Shown here: piece by piece, positions 7,714 through 54,084 of the stretch
How the letters are laid out: the number at the start of each line of letters is the position of its first letter
Numbering within the stretch: the first letter of the stretch is position 1
Assembly (NCBI GenBank): GCA_008933635.1
Contig: WBUQ01000001.1
Coordinates: 1-64,000, forward strand
Direction: 5' to 3'
Length of the DNA stretch: 64,000 nucleotides
From: Desulfobulbaceae bacterium
Lineage (GTDB): Bacteria > Desulfobacterota > Desulfobulbia > Desulfobulbales > Desulfocapsaceae
The notes under the pieces: model-generated
Told to the model about the DNA's origin: nothing
Database searches by the model: none
What the model saw: only the letters and a program-made list of their open reading frames with translations
Made by a program: the position numbers and the translations under genes

Positions 7714-8190
7714 ATGATATCGCGACAATGGTCATCTTTCCAGCAATTGAATTGTGAAGAGCTGTATGAAATTCTCAGGATCCGCCAGGAAATCTTCACC
7801 GTCGAGCAGCGTTGTGCCTACCAGGATGCCGACGGCCTCGACTTCTGCGCCCTGCACCTGCAGGCCTGGGAATCGGATTTCAACCGGCGGCGGATAGTCG
7901 GCTACCTCCGGGTGCTGCCCCCCGGAAGCCGTTTCGCTGAACCATCGATCGGCCGCCTGCTGGTGATCCCGGCGCTGCGACGATCCGGGCTTGCCAGGGA
8001 ATTGATGAAGGAGGCTCTGGAGCGGATTGCGGCTCTCCATCCCGGACTGCCGGTACGGATCTCTGCCCAGTGGTATCTGCAGAAATTCTATGCCAGCCTG
8101 GGCTTTACAGCCGCATCGGCCGTCTATGACGAAGACGGCATCCCCCATCTCGACATGATGCGGTTGCCAGAAGAACAGCTCCGAACCTGA
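7714..8190 (+). CDS. GNAT-family N-acetyltransferase, ElaA type
   Basis: LYEILRIRQEIFTVEQRCAYQDADGLD and IGRLLVIPALRRSGLARELM motifs. Confidence 0.85.
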   Translation: MISRQWSSFQQLNCEELYEILRIRQEIFTVEQRCAYQDADGLDFCALHLQAWESDFNRRRIVGYLRVLPPGSRFAEPSIGRLLVIPALRRSGLARELMKEALERIAALHPGLPVRISAQWYLQKFYASLGFTAASAVYDEDGIPHLDMMRLPEEQLRT

Positions 8191-8236
8191 AGGATGAACC
8201 GATGGACGGATGCCTTTACCCTCTGATCCAGTCCGG

Positions 8237-8722
8237 TCAGAGACAGGGTTCATCGCAGCAGGCTGCCTGAATCGTCATCACCGGACAGGCGGCCATCCGG
8301 ACGACCTGCTCGCTGACACTCTCTCCGCCATCGGCAGGGGGTTCCTTGCGGCCGTATGTCGGGATGACGATGAGATCCACCTGGTTCTCCAGGGCCGTGG
8401 TGACGATCTTTTTTGCTGGATCGCCAACCGCGACCACCGTCTCCTTCAGCAGCGAACTCCCCTCTTCCTCCGACACCCAGTTCCGGTACAGCTCGATCAG
8501 CGCCTTTTTCTCCCGCTGGACCAGGGTTTCCCAGTTCATCCCGGGGATGGAAAGCATTTCATCGGCTATTTCACGACGAATGACGTGCAGCAGCAGGAGG
8601 CTGGCACTGAGCGGCACGGCGAGGGATACAGCCCAGCCGATCGCCTCACCGGTGCAGGTGGAATAATCGGTCGGCACCAGGATTACCGAAATTGTCTTGA
8701 CCATACGCCACCTCCCGCCCAC
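8237..8722 (-). CDS. Universal stress protein (UspA) family
   Basis: ISVILVPTDYSTCTGEAI start; DLIVIPTYGRKEP; MAACPVMTI C-terminal motif. Confidence 0.8.
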   Translation of the reverse strand: MGGRWRMVKTISVILVPTDYSTCTGEAIGWAVSLAVPLSASLLLLHVIRREIADEMLSIPGMNWETLVQREKKALIELYRNWVSEEEGSSLLKETVVAVGDPAKKIVTTALENQVDLIVIPTYGRKEPPADGGESVSEQVVRMAACPVMTIQAACCDEPCL

Positions 8723-26860: not shown

Positions 26861-27378
26861 CCGGCACGTTCGCCGGCATCGCGCTGGATAAGCACCACGC
26901 CGAGGGCAAACGACCCGAAAAGAATCCAGACATCGGCCAGATTGAAGATGCCGGTGCGGAAGCCGCCAAGACCGATATTGAGAAAATCGATCACCCGCCC
27001 GTCGTTGACCAGCCGGTCGACGAGATTGCTCAGCCCGCCCCCGAGAACAAGAATCGCCAGAATCGCCGTCGAAAGCCGCAATGCCGTTGACCACAGGATG
27101 CCGATCAGGCCGGGAACAACCAGACCCGCCACGCCGCAGGTCAGCAGTAGAAACCGGAAGTTTTCGGGCAGGCCTCCGAGCAGACCGAGAAAGCCGCCGC
27201 TGTTCTCGACATAGGACAGACGCAGGGTATCGCACAAGAAGGACAAGGACCCGGCAGGCGCGAGATACCTCGCCGCCAGCCACTTGGTCAGCTGGTCGCT
27301 GCCGATGCAGGCCAGCAGGATGGGGATAAGACAGGCGGCCCTGGACAGCCGCACGCCCATCAAGGCTCGAGGCGTCAT
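26824..27378 (-). CDS. lspA: Lipoprotein signal peptidase (signal peptidase II)
   Basis: SDQLTKWLA; YVENSGGFLGLL; GGGLSNLVDRLVNDGRVIDFLN...FNLADVWI catalytic Asp motifs. Confidence 0.93.
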   Translation of the reverse strand: MTPRALMGVRLSRAACLIPILLACIGSDQLTKWLAARYLAPAGSLSFLCDTLRLSYVENSGGFLGLLGGLPENFRFLLLTCGVAGLVVPGLIGILWSTALRLSTAILAILVLGGGLSNLVDRLVNDGRVIDFLNIGLGGFRTGIFNLADVWILFGSFALGVVLIQRDAGERAGQGRSSQSGSCR

Positions 27379-27391
27379 CGGGAGGGCGGGA

Positions 27392-28207
27392 TCAATCGCC
27401 GACCGCCTTCCGCACGATCTCCCGGTCGAAATAGTTCACCTCCATGCCGGCATCGACGACAATGGCCTGGGCATTGATACCGGAGGACCGCCGGGACAGC
27501 AGGAAGGCTGCCGTATTGGCCACTTCCTCGGTAGCCAGCGCCTGCTTGCGGGGAATCACTTTTTCGGCGAAGAGGTAGCTGTCGACGTATCCCGGGATTC
27601 CGGCAGAGGCCGAGGTCTTGAGCAGGCCCGGGGCCACGGCATTGAAGCGGATGCGGGAAAAGGCGGAGAAGCTCTTGGCGAGAAAGCAGAGCGACGAGTT
27701 CAGCGCTGCCTTGATCGGCGCCATATAGCCGTAATTTTCGGCGGCCATCCTCGTCGTTGAAATCGAGATGGTCACCATCGATGCGTCGCTATCAAGCAGG
27801 TCTTTGAAGTGATCGGCAATACTGACAAAGGAAAAACAGGAGATGTCGACGGCCTGGAGAAAATCCTTTTTCAGCGTCTGGTGAAAGGGTTTGAAGCCGT
27901 CCGAGTAGTTGGCAAAGGCGATGGAATGGACGATGCCGTCCAGACGCCCTCCCTGCGCCGCATCGATCGCCGTAGCGATCTCGCCGCTCACCCGCTCGAT
28001 ATTGGCTTCCTCCTCGACGTCGCAGAGAAACACCTGTGCTTCCGGGAACAGTTTGCGGGCCGTTGCCCGCCGTTCTTCCGAGCGCACGACATGGATGACC
28101 TCGGCGCCCTCAGCCGTAAGTACCCTGGCGATGGCACAGGCCACCGATTTTTTGTTGGCCAGACCGAAGACCACGAAACGTTTGCCTTCCAGCTCGAGAA
28201 AACCCAT
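27392..28207 (-). CDS. fabI: Enoyl-[acyl-carrier-protein] reductase
   Basis: [39 protein letters not shown] catalytic Y/K region; [15 protein letters not shown]. Confidence 0.95.
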
Positions 28208-28454
28208 AGTCGCCCAATCACGGTAGATATTTGATATAACCCGTTTGTTGTCGGCAACAGGATACACTACCAGGTTGAGGGAGACAAGGCGCAACTCCCC
28301 CCGGGATTCCACCACCGGCCCGCACGTCTGCCGCAACCGGTGTTTTCCGTTGTCGTATGGCATCGGAGTAAGGTATATGAACGGCAGACAGAAGACAGCG
28401 GCCGGATTGGCACCGACCGGCGCAGATCACCTCACTGGATGCAGCCCAATCACC

Positions 28455-30134
28455 ATGCAGAAGTATGTTATCGGTATCGACACCGGCGGCACCTTCACCG
28501 ATGCCGTCCTGATGGATGTCGAATCCGGCAGAATCATCTCCTCCGCCAAGAAACCGACCACCCATTACCGTCTGGCCGAGGGCACCGGCGCGGCCCTGGC
28601 CGCACTGCTGGAGCAGGCGGCAGTACCACCCGCCGAAATCAGTGCGGTGGCCGTTTCCTCTACCCTTGCCACCAACAGCGTCGTTGAAAACAAAGGGGCC
28701 CGGGTGGCCCTCTTCGTCATCGGCTATGTCAAGCACTTCAAACTGCCGGTCAAGGCGGTGATTTTCGTCAAGGGCGGGCACACCATCATGGGCGAGGAGG
28801 AAGAGCCGCTCGAACTCGACTATCTGGTCAACCTGCTCCACAGCCTGAAGGATGAAGTCGATGCCTACGGCGTCTGCGCGGCGATGTCGATGGTCAACCC
28901 CACCCATGAAATGGTGGCGGAAAAGGCGATCGCGATGATTGACCCCAAACCGGTCTTCTGCTCGCACCGCATCAGCCAGGTGGCGGGGATGCAGGAGCGG
29001 GCGGCGACGGCCGGGCTGCACGCCAAACTGATGCCGATCATGCAGGAGTATGTCGCCGGGGTGCAGACGGCGATGGCGGCCCATGGTCTCACCTGTCCGA
29101 TGATGATCATCGGCGGCAACGGCCGTACCATTTCAGCCGAAGACGCCGTGGAACAGGCGGGAACGACGGTAGCCAGCGGTCCCGCCTGTACGGCCTGCTT
29201 CGGGGCACACCAGACAGGTGGCAGCGCCCTGGTCGTCGATGTCGGCGGTACCACCACCGATATCGCGATGATCGAGGATGGCCGGCCGCTGATGGCGGCT
29301 GAAGGCTGCAAGATCGGCCAGTGGCGGACCCATGTCGAGGCCATCGACATGAGTACCGGAGGCATCGGCGGCGACTCGCACGTCCATATCAGTGCCAAGG
29401 GGGCGATCTCCATCGGCCCAGCCCGCGTCATCCCCCTGTCCATGGCGGAGGGCATCCCCCCGGTTGCCGAATGGCTGGGCCGGGAAGACCGGAGCAGACT
29501 GGTCATCTATCGCCGCGGACCCACCGTCCGGGATGACAACAAGCTGACGGCCTTCCTCCGCACCCGGGGACAGGCCACCCCTGAGCAGATCCGCCAGGCC
29601 ACCGGTCTCAGCGGCGTCACCCTCGAGCGGGACCTCGAACGGCTGGAACGAAGGCAACTGACTGACGAATGCGGTTTCACCCCGACCGACGCGCTGCATG
29701 TCCTCGATCGCATCAGCCTCGGGAACCGCGACAGAGCCCTGGCCGGAGCCACGGTGCTGGCCGCGGCGGCAGCAATGGCAGTGGAAGACTTCTGCCATCT
29801 GGTAATCAGGAAGACAGAAGAGCAGATAGAGAATCTCGTCATCGACCACCTCGTCCAGCACTACTGGGGCAATTCGCTGGCCAGCTTCATCCCGGCCCGC
29901 GACGACCATCCCGTGCTCAGGGTGGCTTTCTCGCTGAAAATCCCCCTGATCGGCATCGGCGCCGCTGCCAGATATTTCCTGCCGGCCGTCGCTGCCCGGC
30001 TCGCCACCACGGTTTCCTTCCCGCCATGCAGCGAGGTGGGCAATGCCGTCGGCGCAGCCATTCTCTGCCGAAAGGCGCTGGCTGATCGAGGAGAAGACAC
30101 GCCGTGCCCACCTTCTTCTCCGGAAAGACCATGA
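28455..30134 (+). CDS. Hydantoinase/oxoprolinase-family (ASKHA-fold) protein with internal wHTH-like segment
   Basis: YVIGIDTGGTFTDAVLMD; VVDVGGTTTDIAMI; later segment LTAFLRTRGQATPEQIRQATGLSGVTLERDLERLERRQL resembles a winged helix. Confidence 0.85.
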   Translation: MQKYVIGIDTGGTFTDAVLMDVESGRIISSAKKPTTHYRLAEGTGAALAALLEQAAVPPAEISAVAVSSTLATNSVVENKGARVALFVIGYVKHFKLPVKAVIFVKGGHTIMGEEEEPLELDYLVNLLHSLKDEVDAYGVCAAMSMVNPTHEMVAEKAIAMIDPKPVFCSHRISQVAGMQERAATAGLHAKLMPIMQEYVAGVQTAMAAHGLTCPMMIIGGNGRTISAEDAVEQAGTTVASGPACTACFGAHQTGGSALVVDVGGTTTDIAMIEDGRPLMAAEGCKIGQWRTHVEAIDMSTGGIGGDSHVHISAKGAISIGPARVIPLSMAEGIPPVAEWLGREDRSRLVIYRRGPTVRDDNKLTAFLRTRGQATPEQIRQATGLSGVTLERDLERLERRQLTDECGFTPTDALHVLDRISLGNRDRALAGATVLAAAAAMAVEDFCHLVIRKTEEQIENLVIDHLVQHYWGNSLASFIPARDDHPVLRVAFSLKIPLIGIGAAARYFLPAVAARLATTVSFPPCSEVGNAVGAAILCRKALADRGEDTPCPPSSPERP

Positions 30135-30538
30135 AGAAAGTCAACGTTGACAATCCAGCTGGCGTCAGGCGATTTGTCCGCGATATCCTTGGCTGTGGCT
30201 GCCCGGAGGAGGTTTTCGACGAGCTGGTCCTGGCTGAGGAGACGATCGCTGACGGCAGCACGGCCACCAGGACGCTGCTCGTCGGCAACCGGCTGCTGGT
30301 CGTGCTGCTCTGCTGCAGGGACTGGGATAGTCTGAGCGGCATCCTGCCGCAACTGGTCAGCCACTACCGGCAGGAACGGGATGAGAGGGGTTTGAACCGG
30401 GTGCGAATTGTTGTCGCTTGCGACCAGCCGGCAGCACTGCAGCCAGCCGCCTCGCTTTGTTTCGCCGGCCTGCCGGGGGTCGACGAACGGATGCACCTCC
30501 ATATCCTCGCGCCGGCCGATCTCGCCGGAGTCGCATGA
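30131..30538 (+). CDS. Conserved-looking hypothetical protein (DILGCGCPEEVF motif)
   Basis: ATG overlaps the preceding TGA (ATGA); intact ORF. Confidence 0.65.
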   Translation: MKKVNVDNPAGVRRFVRDILGCGCPEEVFDELVLAEETIADGSTATRTLLVGNRLLVVLLCCRDWDSLSGILPQLVSHYRQERDERGLNRVRIVVACDQPAALQPAASLCFAGLPGVDERMHLHILAPADLAGVA

Positions 30539-30729
30539 GCGGCCGCAAGCCTCAACCGCACTGTCCCTTCTGCCACGGCAGCGGCCAGATATCCACATTC
30601 AAAGGAGTGAGCCGCTTTCTGCTGACTGTCGAAGAATGCCCAAACTGTTGCGGTACCGGTCATGAAACAGCCGGCGCGAAGAAAAAGCCAGCCCCTCGGC
30701 CACAACGGAAGAAACGCCATGACAGCTGA
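30535..30729 (+). CDS. Small DnaJ-like CxxCxGxG zinc-finger protein
   Basis: 64 aa with CPFCHGSGQ and CPNCCGTGH; ATGA overlap with the upstream gene. Confidence 0.7.
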   Translation: MSGRKPQPHCPFCHGSGQISTFKGVSRFLLTVEECPNCCGTGHETAGAKKKPAPRPQRKKRHDS

Positions 30730-30752
30730 CATCTCCGCCTGAGCCTCTTCTA

Positions 30753-31208
30753 ATGGACTTTCCCGCTCTGTTCTCTCCGCCGTTTGGCCTGGCTTCCCTG
30801 TTCGGTCTCAGCTTCCTCGCCTCAACCGTTATCCCGCTCGGTTCGGAATGGCTCCTGGTCATGCTGCTTCTTCAGGGACATCCTGCCATTGCGGCGGTTA
30901 CCGTCGCCACCCTCGGCAACACGCTCGGAGCCTGCACCACCTATCTGATCGGAGCCCTCGGCTCCGGATTTCTCACCCACAGAATCCTGCGACTCTCCGA
31001 ACCGGAACTCGAAAGGAGCAGACGCATCTACCAGCGGTTTGGCGTCTGGTCGCTGCTGTTCACCTGGATCCCGGTGATCGGCGACCCTCTCTGCCTCCTT
31101 GCCGGAGCCATGCGGTCCTCCCTGCCCCTGTTTCTTGTACTTGTTCCGATCGGCAAGGCCTGCCGGTATGCTGTCCTTGCCCTGATCACCCGACAGGGGA
31201 TGCCCTGA
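30753..31208 (+). CDS. YqaA-family (DedA-related) inner-membrane protein
   Basis: IPLGSEWLLVMLLLQGHPAIAAVTVATLGNTLGACTTYLIG; WIPVIGDPLCLLAGAMR. Confidence 0.88.
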   Translation: MDFPALFSPPFGLASLFGLSFLASTVIPLGSEWLLVMLLLQGHPAIAAVTVATLGNTLGACTTYLIGALGSGFLTHRILRLSEPELERSRRIYQRFGVWSLLFTWIPVIGDPLCLLAGAMRSSLPLFLVLVPIGKACRYAVLALITRQGMP

Positions 31209-31300
31209 ATCGAAAATCATCCCGCCGCAGGGATGACAACATGAGGATAGACCTTATGGTTGATCAATGTCATGCCAATCCATCTGTCTCGAGAACAACA

Positions 31301-32053
31301 ATGAAAGAAGCGACATACCTGACAATCATCGATGAATTCGACCGCTGGGCGGGGCAGTACGGCCGTATCTGCACCAGGGGCTGCAGTTGCTGCTGCACCG
31401 GCAGTGTCACCATCACCGCTCTGGAAGGGGAGAGGATCCTCGACTTCGCAGTCAAGAACGGCATGGAGCAGTGGCTGGCGGATCGTTTGCGGCAACCGGT
31501 GCAGACCCGGCGACTGCGCATGACCACCAACGAGTTCGCCCGCGCCTGCCTGAGCGGCCAGGAAGCCGCTCCCGGCACCTGCGAAAAGCTGACCCCCTGT
31601 CCCTTCCTTGCAGACGATATCTGCCGGGTCTATCCGGTGCGCCCGTTTTCCTGCCGCTGTTTCATCTCGATCAGCCGGTGTTCGGCAACGCGGCCGGCGC
31701 AGGTCGACCAGCTCTACCTCTCCGCCAGCACCGCCGTCCTCCAGCTGATCGAACACCTCGGCCAGAAACAATACTGGGGCATCATGACCGACGTGCTGTT
31801 GTCGCTGCTGGATATCTCGACCTACCAGGGGATAGCGACAGCCCTTGCCGACCCGGCGAGGGTAATGGAAGGACGGCTCCGCACCCTCACCGCCCGGCCA
31901 CTTCCCGGCTTCCTGTTCACCGAGGAGGAGGGGCAGCACCTGCAACCGCTGCTGCACGCCATCTTCAGCTCCCGGATTGGCAGCGTCAGCGTTGAGGACG
32001 TTCTCAACGGCAGGATCCCACCCGAGAACGGGCCGGGAGCTCAGACAATATGA
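31301..32053 (+). CDS. YkgJ-family cysteine cluster protein
   Basis: CTRGCSCCCTGSV; CPFLADDICRVYPVRPFSCRCF. Confidence 0.75.
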   Translation: MKEATYLTIIDEFDRWAGQYGRICTRGCSCCCTGSVTITALEGERILDFAVKNGMEQWLADRLRQPVQTRRLRMTTNEFARACLSGQEAAPGTCEKLTPCPFLADDICRVYPVRPFSCRCFISISRCSATRPAQVDQLYLSASTAVLQLIEHLGQKQYWGIMTDVLLSLLDISTYQGIATALADPARVMEGRLRTLTARPLPGFLFTEEEGQHLQPLLHAIFSSRIGSVSVEDVLNGRIPPENGPGAQTI

Positions 32054-32682
32054 GCGGAAACACACCAACCACCGCAGAGAGCGAGCAGATCACCATCCTG
32101 CTGCCGGCGGGCCGGCTTCCGCGGGCGATCCTGGCTGAAGTCAACGCACTGGCTGCGCGGCATGGCTTTGCGATCTACCTCACCACATTGCAGAACCTGC
32201 GTCTGCTCGACGTCCCGCGATCGGCCGCCGTGGAGATCAGGGAGCGCCTCGCCGCCCTTGGCGCCGAGTTCAAAGCCGCCGGCAGGTTCCCGGTTCCCCG
32301 GATCTGTATCGGCAGTCCCTATTGCAGCCTTGGACGTATCGACACGAAGGCGCTGAGCGACACGATCCAGGAACGTTTTTCCGGACGGGCAAAGACCAAG
32401 GCCAAACTGAAAATCGCCATCTCCGGCTGTATCCTCAGCTGTTCCGGGACCCGAACCAGCGACATCGGCGTCGTCGCCGCCAGGCACGGCTACGACGTCT
32501 ATGCCGGCGGCAAGGGAGGCCCGGCACCGAAGATCGGCAGGAGGATCCTCAAGGAGGGGACAGAGGAGGAGGTGCTCGCGGCCATCGCGACCCTGATCGA
32601 TTTCCACGATCGCCGGACCACCAGTAAACAACGGATGGCCAAACTGATCGACGATCCCGGGTTTCCTTTTGCCGAAGTCTGA
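32050..32682 (+). CDS. Small sulfite/nitrite reductase-like siroheme/4Fe-4S protein (alSiR-like)
   Basis: CIGSPYC (Cx5C) and SGCILSC (CxxxC) ligand motifs; single-module about 210-aa protein; ATGA overlap with the upstream gene. Confidence 0.75.
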   Translation: MSGNTPTTAESEQITILLPAGRLPRAILAEVNALAARHGFAIYLTTLQNLRLLDVPRSAAVEIRERLAALGAEFKAAGRFPVPRICIGSPYCSLGRIDTKALSDTIQERFSGRAKTKAKLKIAISGCILSCSGTRTSDIGVVAARHGYDVYAGGKGGPAPKIGRRILKEGTEEEVLAAIATLIDFHDRRTTSKQRMAKLIDDPGFPFAEV

Positions 32683-32715: not shown

Positions 32716-35314
<2,599 letters not shown>

Positions 35315-38643: not shown

Positions 38644-39252
38644 TCATGGCAGCGTCGGTGGCCCCTTGGCCAGCATTTCAGCGATGGTCATCCTGATTTT
38701 GGGGCACCGGTCTCGAAGATCCAGCACCAGTTCATTTTCCAGCAGTGCCAGTTGCCGGAGCAGAGGCGTGCGCTCGACCATGGGGATCGTCCCCGCCTCG
38801 GATTCGCGCTCACTGGTGATTTTCTGGCAGCGAAAACAGCCGGGAAAGGTCAGGCGCCTGCCGTCGGGCCTCGTCATCGTCGCCGGCACCCCATGGGTCC
38901 TGCAGACCAGAAGCCTGAATGGATACAGGACGCACAGCCCTTCCTCGTTGAGCGGACACATCATCACCGGTCGCCGCTCCTGGGCCAGCTCATCCGCATA
39001 TTGCCGGACAACCCGGTGGGCCCGGTCGAGAATTTCCTGCTGTTTCTGGAGCGGCAGCTGCCGCATTCCCTGCCACAGATAGATCCATTCAACGTAGGTG
39101 TAATGGAGGAAATAGGAGTCACAGCAATTATCCGGGCAGCCCTTGCAACTGAATTCCAGCCGGCGGGCCACTTCATCGTATTCCTCCTCCATGGCCTGAT
39201 AGATTTTCTTCAGACGCTCGGTCAGTTTCTCCGGCAGGGTCAACTCTCTCAT
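38644..39252 (-). CDS. YkgJ-like cysteine cluster protein
   Basis: FSCKGCPDNCCDSYF; MCPLNEEGLCVLYPFRLLVCRTHG. Confidence 0.75.
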   Translation of the reverse strand: MRELTLPEKLTERLKKIYQAMEEEYDEVARRLEFSCKGCPDNCCDSYFLHYTYVEWIYLWQGMRQLPLQKQQEILDRAHRVVRQYADELAQERRPVMMCPLNEEGLCVLYPFRLLVCRTHGVPATMTRPDGRRLTFPGCFRCQKITSERESEAGTIPMVERTPLLRQLALLENELVLDLRDRCPKIRMTIAEMLAKGPPTLP

Positions 39253-51541: not shown

Positions 51542-52786
51542 TCACATTGGGACAATAAGTTTATTGGTTTCCTCGTTCCAGGTAACAACCAGATACCATA
51601 TCACCATGACGGCCATGATAAGCAACAAGGTACCGCCATATCCCATGGCGTCTGGGAGATAGACATAGGAACCAAGAACACCATCCGCCTCGAAATCGTT
51701 ATCACGGAACCAGGATGTCATTATGGATGTTGAAATCCCGAAGAAGGGCACCACCATCAGGAGCTTCACCTGTCCCTCACCGACACGCCAGAGGGTCCCG
51801 GAACCGCATCCACCGGCAAACATCGCACCAAGGCCAAAGATAAAACCACCAACGACCCCGCCCCAGCCAAACGTGCCTCTGACATAGTTTATGGGGGCGA
51901 GCACCGCTTCTCCTTCCGCCCGCATTGGCACAGCATACTTCAGTATCGCGGCACCGACAGCAACAAGAACTATCGACAGCATGACCGATTTCGCCATCGT
52001 GCAATCGCCCGTCATGTGCGGTTCTCTAAAACCCTGGACCATGCACCACCTACCTCTCTGCATGGCGTATCCGAGAGCTGCCGCGAGAAGTATCACGCCT
52101 CCCAGTGAAGCGATGTAATCATCCTCCTCATTGCCCGAAAACGCGTTTGCCACATACATCAGGAAGATTACAGCCGCCAACCCTATATAAGGAAGAAGGT
52201 TGGAGGGGATGCTCAGTGTCTTTGCTCCACCCTCTCCCCATTGAATATGCTCCATCTCGAGATACAGGAGCTTCAGTCCCAAAATGACACCGAAGAAAAG
52301 TCCCAGCATCATGGCAAAACCGTTGGCGGCGAGGTTTCCGACAGCGTTGTAAAAACCGCCGACATTACACCCACCGGCAAGAGAGGCGCCTATCCCCATA
52401 AGGATTCCTGCAATTACAGCCTTAACCATTTCCCGGTATGGCGGGATTCTCAAGGCGAAATCCTTTCCCAGGCAGGCCGAAATAAATGCACCGCCGATGA
52501 AACCCAGTCCGATTACTGAACCAGAATCTATAAAAATAGATCTCGGGGCCTCTTCATAGAAGGCAAACACACCCGAATCGGCTCCAAGCAAACTGGTGAA
52601 ACCATACATGATCCAGTCGCCCCAGTTTCTCAAGGCACCGACTGCCCCCCAAGGTCGCCACCAAGCCATCATCATAACGGAGAAAAAAGCCACCACAACC
52701 CCCGTTACAGTGGGATTCCATTCACTCTGGCAGATTGTCTTGTAGAGTCCTTCGGCCTTACTTTTTACAATGCTTCCGTCACCCAT
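51542..52786 (-). CDS. YeeE/YedE (TsuA-like) sulfur-transport-family membrane protein
   Basis: Many TM helices; GASLAGGCNVGG, RGRWCMVQGFREPH, AGGCGSGTLWRVGEGQ Cys motifs; ATG at 52786 with GGAGG upstream. Confidence 0.9.
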   Translation of the reverse strand: MGDGSIVKSKAEGLYKTICQSEWNPTVTGVVVAFFSVMMMAWWRPWGAVGALRNWGDWIMYGFTSLLGADSGVFAFYEEAPRSIFIDSGSVIGLGFIGGAFISACLGKDFALRIPPYREMVKAVIAGILMGIGASLAGGCNVGGFYNAVGNLAANGFAMMLGLFFGVILGLKLLYLEMEHIQWGEGGAKTLSIPSNLLPYIGLAAVIFLMYVANAFSGNEEDDYIASLGGVILLAAALGYAMQRGRWCMVQGFREPHMTGDCTMAKSVMLSIVLVAVGAAILKYAVPMRAEGEAVLAPINYVRGTFGWGGVVGGFIFGLGAMFAGGCGSGTLWRVGEGQVKLLMVVPFFGISTSIMTSWFRDNDFEADGVLGSYVYLPDAMGYGGTLLLIMAVMVIWYLVVTWNEETNKLIVPM

Positions 52787-53099: not shown

Positions 53100-53357
53100 A
53101 TGAGTGAGTTCAAAGTAGCCGACGATGGAATCAAGCCAAACGTGGTACTTGATGCAAAAGGTCTGAGTTGCCCCATGCCTCTTCTTCGTACAAAAAAAGA
53201 AATTGGAAAACTTTCTGCGGGTGAAATCCTGCAGGTCGACGGCACAGATCCGGGCTCCCGCAATGATATCCCCGGATGGTGCGAGCGCTCAGGACACGAA
53301 TACCTAGGTGAGAAAGAGCACTCGGGATATATCAGCTTCTATATCAAGAAGGGGTGA
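53100..53357 (+). CDS. tusA: TusA-family sulfurtransferase
   Basis: LDAKGLSCPMPLLRTKKEIGKL signature CPxP. Confidence 0.93.
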   Translation: MSEFKVADDGIKPNVVLDAKGLSCPMPLLRTKKEIGKLSAGEILQVDGTDPGSRNDIPGWCERSGHEYLGEKEHSGYISFYIKKG

Positions 53358-53781: not shown

Positions 53782-54084
53782 ATGTCCTTTAAAAAAGTTT
53801 GCTTCATGTACAGACATAAAGATTACGCCGTGGATGGGATCCGCTCCGCCTTGGGTCTGGCTGTTGAAAACATGTATTCATACGGTGTCGTTATGGATAA
53901 CGAGTTGGCATCGTTAGATGAAAACACCCAAGAGAGTATCGAGATGCTGCGGGATATGGAAGGAGAGATTTTTTCCACGATCCCAGCAAATGTCGAAAAT
54001 CTCGGTCTTGCCTCTATTACCCTGGAAGAACTTGGAGAAAAACTGCGTGAGATGACCCATGTTATTCCTTATGGCTTGAAGTAA
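53782..54084 (+). CDS. DsrE/DsrF-like small protein
   Basis: MSFKKVCFMYRHKDYAVDGIRSALGLAVENMYSYGVVMDNEL, DsrEF-like fold pattern and context. Confidence 0.6.
   Translation: MSFKKVCFMYRHKDYAVDGIRSALGLAVENMYSYGVVMDNELASLDENTQESIEMLRDMEGEIFSTIPANVENLGLASITLEELGEKLREMTHVIPYGLK

Follow-up and report, generated by a model that had tools for sequence, protein, structure and literature searches.

A colinear gene string between fabI and pyrG in a Desulfobulbaceae bacterium, probably of independently useful accessory genes

The stretch of DNA from a sulfur-cycling Desulfobulbaceae bacterium analysed here (the window; positions 1-64,000 of contig WBUQ01000001.1, from a source genome of 4.55 Mb in 240 contigs) carries a string of six genes between fabI and pyrG. 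These encode a HyuA-type ASKHA ATPase (HyuA), an orphan protein (P0002), a CxxCxGxG protein (P0003), a YqaA-like membrane protein, a cysteine-rich YkgJ-like protein (YkgJ) and a small siroheme-type protein (SiR), as listed in Table 1. A first-pass annotation had described these as one tightly coupled unit, and as a possible ATP-dependent maturation module for a sulfur or nitrogen redox enzyme. Its physical description is borne out by the coordinates, which place six open reading frames head-to-tail with four-base ATGA stop/start overlaps at 30131, 30535 and 32050. As 8 of the 38 same-strand neighbouring pairs among the called genes of the window overlap (the CxxCxGxG gene not being in the call set), this packing is operon-like, but ordinary for the window. 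The family names were sound in part: the HyuA, VTT and NIR_SIR matches exceed their Pfam cut-offs, the CxxCxxCC match of YkgJ lies below its own, and the "unknown" P0002 indeed matches no family in Pfam or NCBIfam. The portrayal of the remaining members as small metal-binding or redox-type proteins plus one membrane protein is likewise supported. There was no Rfam match to an RNA element between positions 27000 and 34000. Below, G numbers denote compared genomes (G000 being the source), L numbers fetched loci, and C numbers contigs of the source genome.

Table 1. Features of the gene string and its flanks, in window coordinates
Feature	Positions	Strand	Evidence or remark
FabI-type enoyl-acyl carrier protein reductase	27392..28315	-	Pfam adh_short_C2 E 3.4e-54; divergent neighbour of HyuA
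Promoter-like site before HyuA: TTGTCG, 18 bases, TATATG	28350..28379	+	alignment
HyuA-type ASKHA ATPase, 559 residues	28455..30134	+	Pfam Hydant_A_N E 2.6e-31, Hydantoinase_A E 1.5e-25
Winged-helix-like insert in HyuA	29532..29678 (about residues 360-408)	+	AlphaFold, weak helix-turn-helix matches
P0002, orphan family	30131..30538	+	no Pfam/NCBIfam match; invariant LGCxCP motif
P0003 (CxxCxGxG protein), 64 residues, single DnaJ-type zinc module	30535..30729	+	two CxxCxGxG
VTT-domain (DedA/YqaA-like) membrane protein	30753..31208	+	Pfam VTT_dom E 5.1e-11, over cut-off
Promoter-like site before YkgJ: ATGACA, 16 bases, TATGGT	31233..31260	+	alignment
YkgJ-like cysteine-rich protein	31301..32053 (likely start; longer form from 31241)	+	Pfam CxxCxxCC E 0.004, below cut-off
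Small siroheme-type protein (SiR), 210 residues	32050..32682	+	Pfam NIR_SIR E 9.7e-18, NIR_SIR_ferr E 2.7e-6
CTP synthase pyrG	32821..34479	+	first of pyrG-kdsA-kdsC-lptC; syntenic downstream in most relatives keeping the string

Relatives preserve the order of the string strictly, and its membership loosely. When the conservation of the neighbourhood was checked, as the first-pass annotation had proposed, order and strand were identical in all 19 genomes with at least two of the genes together, or with one between the landmarks fabI and pyrG: fabI diverging from HyuA, followed by P0002, the CxxCxGxG gene, YqaA, YkgJ, SiR and pyrG. In the window and 13 relatives, fabI is directly divergent from HyuA. 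Yet relatives keep, lose and separate the genes one by one. Within the genus itself, G001 is without P0002 and SiR, G004 retains P0002 only as a truncated remnant, and G002 has three genes interposed between HyuA and P0002; a P0002 remnant at the same-genus locus L041 (8807-8899, minus strand), with 28 aligned residues at 50% identity, lies between HyuA and the CxxCxGxG gene. Further afield, 0.9-2.3 kb separates HyuA from the next gene of the string in G029, G016 and G032, HyuA is on a different contig in G021, and YqaA-YkgJ stands alone beside pyrG in G017 and, as far as the sequence covered, in G030. Desulfofustis glycolicus DSM 9705 retains just P0002-YkgJ. HyuA lies beside fabI without the other five genes in several relatives, and apart from fabI in several genomes (L050, L059-L062). 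Other families of the order have the CxxCxGxG gene next to folD-like or SUI1-like genes (names read from sequence), most genomes have the SiR gene on its own, and the HyuA, CxxCxGxG, YkgJ and SiR genes are each also found alone in unrelated contexts across the order. The insert in G002 (L043 6737-9146, plus strand) consists of an apparent extracytoplasmic function sigma factor, an anti-sigma factor and a gene of 295 residues, named by eye from their sequences; and genes of about 190-200 residues (MEKVGIHKRDIMVDRV...) recur near the string or HyuA in several genera (L044 10390-10989, L049 12281-12844 and L056 15205-15771, all on the minus strand).

A phyletic survey of 58 genomes quantified this scatter, with genes scored as near when within 6 kb; contig ends in draft genomes account for some of the missing adjacency, and the Fisher tests cited below ignore phylogeny and the number of tests. 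HyuA was present in 23 genomes, P0002 in 5, the CxxCxGxG protein in 31, YkgJ in 48 and SiR in 26. Among genomes having both members of a pair, the genes were near one another in 3 of 13 for HyuA-SiR, 8 of 21 for HyuA-YkgJ, 12 of 28 for CxxCxGxG-YkgJ, 7 of 21 for YkgJ-SiR and 5 of 5 for P0002-YkgJ. SiR was absent from 10 of the 23 genomes with HyuA, and HyuA from 13 of the 26 with SiR.

Two promoter-like sites are conserved within this arrangement. Upstream of HyuA, the core TA-GGTATATGA is invariant in an alignment of five genomes from two genera; matching 8 of 12 consensus positions, the site falls below the default threshold of promoter scans, and was recovered by alignment only. In the gap between YqaA and YkgJ, [AC]TGACA-N16-TATNNT occurs at the same place in all five genus members, and this pattern, itself drawn from the alignment, has a single match in the 64 kb window against 0.13 expected by chance. 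The ATG at 31241 lies inside the latter site, and most orthologues begin near residue 21 of the longer form, their alignment to it opening at about residue 16-28; therefore the predicted start of YkgJ is most likely 31301, rather than 31241. This start leaves a gap of 92 bases after YqaA, with its own promoter-like site. Hence transcription of the string is likely to involve two or more units, and the claim of one tightly coupled unit, accurate as to packing and overlaps, probably breaks down at the conserved internal promoter-like site.

The first gene encodes a HyuA-fold ATPase that stands alone and contains a winged-helix-like insertion. Its matches to PF05378 and PF01968 score 109.1 and 90.5 bits, against cut-offs of 25.2 and 22.9, and both ASKHA phosphate (ATP) motifs are conserved in an alignment of 23 orthologues. 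The AlphaFold model (predicted local distance difference test score, pLDDT, 87.5) matched N-methylhydantoinase (9h03), acetone carboxylase beta (5svc/5m45) and caprolactamase in Foldseek searches. Its description as a lone HyuA lacking a HyuB partner holds for the window gene, because no protein of the cluster is a HyuB, and both HyuB matches in the genome map to different contigs (C32 and C83). Identification as an N-methylhydantoinase, oxoprolinase or acetone carboxylase enzyme was rejected, there being no adjacent HyuB and no NCBIfam equivalog cut-off reached (the best score being 86 of 1000 bits). The internal segment annotated as winged-helix-like is backed by the model, in which it forms three helices and a strand (363-371, 376-383, 387-399 and 403-407), and by helix-turn-helix profile matches that are all sub-threshold (HTH_11 E 0.011 for the insert fragment). 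A similar insert is found in a DUF1638-HyuA paralogue on contig C177, which is 37% identical to the window HyuA over 329 columns, and is missing from paralogues linked to histone deacetylase-like genes; which paralogue is nearest is left unsettled by the long branches and weak inner forks of the tree. The C177 paralogue is a 944-residue fusion; its cluster also encodes MttB, corrinoid and pterin-binding proteins, RACo and a sigma-54 activator (L067 1391-11090). Published work draws a hydantoinase gene within glycine betaine corrinoid clusters (PMC9768040) and predicts that a DUF1638 protein assists cobalamin recharging (PMC12478193). At L068-L070, the other type of HyuA paralogue, of about 570 residues and without the insert, is followed by a gene of 435-438 residues, which at L068 encodes a histone deacetylase-like protein (Pfam E 4.9e-67).

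The next three genes encode small proteins. P0002 belongs to an orphan family with a patchy distribution across several phyla: a pattern scan of contigs in GTDB recovered 27 loci, in Nitrospirota, Acidobacteriota, Proteobacteria, Chloroflexi, Planctomycetes and Desulfobacterota (as read from record titles). The LGCxCP motif is common to all five members of its alignment, from which a confident AlphaFold model was obtained (pLDDT 90.4). Many of the best Foldseek matches are PD-(D/E)XK nucleases, but none is significant (E >= 0.015, template modelling score < 0.5), and the alignment contains no conserved (D/E)xK signature in the third-strand segment. No constant partner was seen in the 27 loci beyond closely related pairs, a weak result because the gene caller missed many short genes. 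In the CxxCxGxG protein, C10 C13 G15 G17 ... C35 C38 G40 G42 are invariant across a 12-member alignment, the profile of which matches the DnaJ zinc domain structure 1exk (E 6.6e-7). A DnaJ chaperone is ruled out by the length of the protein, its two modules rather than four, and its lack of a J domain. Across 345 genomes of the phylum, strong matches are confined to the order, and weaker ones fall mostly in frames of about 300-420 residues, as DnaJ itself would give. The membrane protein exceeds the cut-off for the VTT domain PF09335 (43.5 bits against 33.9).

The last gene encodes a siroheme-type protein resembling a single half of a sulfite/nitrite reductase, in which the four cluster cysteines (C86-x5-C92, C127-x3-C131) and the Lys-x-Lys motif (K119-x-K121) are intact. 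When 25 sequences of the window SiR type were compared with 11 of the alSir type of small siroheme reductase, these motifs were kept in all or all but one sequence of each, so that by motif the window SiR counts as a small, alSir-like siroheme sulfite reductase. The source genome encodes an alSir-type protein as well (contig C106; L229 about 7811-8371, plus strand). The two types form separate clades with support of 100/100, at about 22-32% identity; at the two positions occupied by Arg and Ala in the alSir type, the window protein carries Asn49 and Arg51. The window SiR was consequently rejected as an alSir orthologue proper, being on the opposite side of the 100/100 branch from the alSir-type proteins, the clade of which is assumed to be that of DVU_1597. 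Matches to the window type with E of 1e-90 or better occur only within the order, and a second tier lies in other families (E near 1e-36 to 1e-40). To judge by its sequence, the window SiR represents a second and separate type of miniature siroheme protein, akin to sulfite or nitrite reductases, and is most likely a small siroheme-[4Fe-4S] hemoprotein that reduces sulfite or nitrite.

Its neighbour YkgJ has nine cysteines that are invariant in 13 orthologues, and scores 18.2 bits against the CxxCxxCC family PF03692, for which the cut-off is 23. No relative was found among solved structures, and a literature search returned no matching paper. In the seven genomes with adjacent YkgJ and SiR genes, these are always on one strand, at a spacing of -4 to 78 bases; in G008 and G024, YkgJ overlaps P0002, not SiR. 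Another cysteine-rich protein, with a CKGCPDNCC motif, is encoded at 38644-39252 of the window (minus strand), in a block conserved with its neighbours in several relatives.

Because relatives keep, lose and separate these genes one by one, they appear to be neighbours sharing an address, rather than parts of one machine. The locus is therefore best regarded as probably a colinear run of accessory genes, each useful independently, set between fabI and pyrG in one Desulfobulbales family. In such an arrangement, the promoter-like site upstream of HyuA would drive HyuA-P0002-CxxCxGxG-YqaA, and that at 31233-31260 would drive YkgJ-SiR. HyuA would be an ATP-binding ASKHA protein acting independently on its own substrate, the CxxCxGxG protein a free-standing DnaJ-type zinc module, YkgJ a nine-cysteine metal-binding protein, and SiR a recipient of electrons for sulfite or nitrite reduction from a ferredoxin-like donor. 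YkgJ and SiR are likely the sole plausible functional pair in the string. Several observations weigh against so loose an association. The HyuA-P0002 and P0002-YkgJ overlaps are also present in another genus (G008, G024), and hence some coupling predates the window's own genus; the strict order across genera could also reflect selection to hold the set together; and HyuA co-occurs slightly above expectation with the CxxCxGxG protein (Fisher p 0.02) and, within the family, with SiR (p 0.04), neither value being corrected for phylogeny or multiple tests.

The same evidence bears on the module originally proposed, in which HyuA, using ATP, would activate or mature a sulfur/nitrogen redox enzyme within a dedicated six-gene system, the small cysteine proteins would carry metal or clusters, and the siroheme protein would be the client. 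Such a system would make sense of the tight overlaps in the window, the order kept in 19 genomes, the conserved ATP motifs of HyuA and its weak co-occurrence with SiR, but it is very unlikely, given how often HyuA and SiR occur without each other, how seldom they are near when both are present, the conserved site that parts YkgJ-SiR from HyuA, and the absence or decay of P0002 in close relatives keeping the rest. The first-pass annotation had itself named homologues in unrelated contexts as grounds for abandoning the module, and these grounds largely apply, HyuA, the CxxCxGxG protein, SiR and P0002 being found elsewhere. What survives of its interpretation is the packing, the order, the ATP-binding HyuA fold and the small metal or redox proteins; what does not is their union in one coupled module. 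An intermediate possibility, unlikely but deserving some weight, is a two-gene redox unit in which YkgJ would supply electrons or iron to SiR, with the rest of the string incidental. Consistent strand and close spacing in 7 of 7 genomes with adjacency, a separate conserved promoter-like site and the invariant cysteines of YkgJ argue for such contact, while YkgJ is more widespread than SiR (48 against 26 of the 58 genomes), 14 of the 21 genomes carrying the two genes have them far apart or on separate contigs, and YkgJ overlaps P0002 instead in G008 and G024. Rather improbable is the bolder version, in which SiR would represent a second class of miniature siroheme reductase, found only in Desulfobulbales and having its own substrate-site layout (Asn49/Arg51), and YkgJ, with its nine cysteines, would be its dedicated donor of electrons or iron.

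Two further explanations concern HyuA alone. Its identity to the C177 fusion, which is itself beside MttB, corrinoid, pterin-binding and RACo genes, the similar insert and the published cluster precedents would suit a role in corrinoid methyl-transfer metabolism, unrelated to the redox proteins. Across the 58 genomes, though, HyuA presence was associated with neither DUF1638 (Fisher p 1.0) nor MttB (p 0.38), no corrinoid genes were recognised near HyuA at the loci examined, and the paralogue tree does not settle its closest relative. As HyuA tracks neither MttB nor DUF1638, the role was not transferred to the window protein, despite its close paralogue in an MttB cluster, and is regarded as highly improbable. 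Distinctly unlikely, too, is that HyuA is a regulator resembling ROK repressors, an ASKHA sensor using its winged-helix insert to control the divergent fabI and its own gene. The insert itself, the repeated divergence from fabI and the conserved promoter-like sequence in between are what such a regulator would require; however, the helix-turn-helix profile matches are sub-threshold, the intergenic regions revealed no palindromic operator in common, their shared words resembling promoter elements, and HyuA is separated from fabI in several genomes.

The string is chiefly a caution that strict gene order can persist across a bacterial family without a single pathway. The useful lead from the locus is the small siroheme protein. 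In this order, bacteria often possess two kinds of this simplest siroheme-[4Fe-4S] enzyme that diverge deeply from each other, and to our knowledge the physiological role of such small siroheme enzymes is not settled. How the two divide their labour becomes testable in a genus that has both, one of them encoded in a compact YkgJ-SiR unit preceded by a promoter-like site of its own.

Elsewhere in the window, genes for a YedE-like Sulf_transp protein (51542-52786, minus strand), TusA (53100-53357, plus strand) and a DsrE-like open reading frame without a Pfam match (53782-54084, plus strand) lie close together. As a candidate likeness only, this trio resembles the YTD genes, which have been discussed as candidates in sulfur disproportionation (PMC12998232).

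The membrane protein shares its VTT domain with proteins of the VTT/DedA superfamily such as YqaA, from which nothing notable distinguishes it. HyuA is like the HyuA subunits of N-methylhydantoinase, caprolactamase and acetone carboxylase (COG0145) in its fold, both ATP motifs and Pfam matches, but is only 560 residues long, has no adjacent HyuB, carries the winged-helix-like insert and reaches no equivalog cut-off. With the DUF1638-HyuA of C177 it shares 37% identity over the ASKHA core and an insert at the matching position, but not the DUF1638 domain, the corrinoid neighbours or a phyletic association with MttB or DUF1638. The CxxCxGxG protein has the paired modules of the DnaJ cysteine-rich zinc domain and of anti-TRAP (RtpA), with a sequence match to 1exk, whereas it has one module pair only, a conserved GQI..F.GVSRF linker and no J domain. 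YkgJ aligns through its cysteine-rich N-terminal motif region with the CxxCxxCC domain, putatively zinc- or iron-chelating, while being longer, below the Pfam cut-off and marked by nine invariant cysteines. Finally, the alSir of Desulfovibrio vulgaris (DVU_1597), a small monomer bearing only the siroheme-coupled [4Fe-4S] cluster (PMC3448663), is, like the window SiR, a small single half with the four cysteines of that cluster, a likeness drawn from description rather than sequence. The alSir-type proteins of the genomes compared here also share the Lys-x-Lys before the third cysteine, whereas the window SiR stands apart from them in a clade of its own, distinguished by Asn49 and Arg51.

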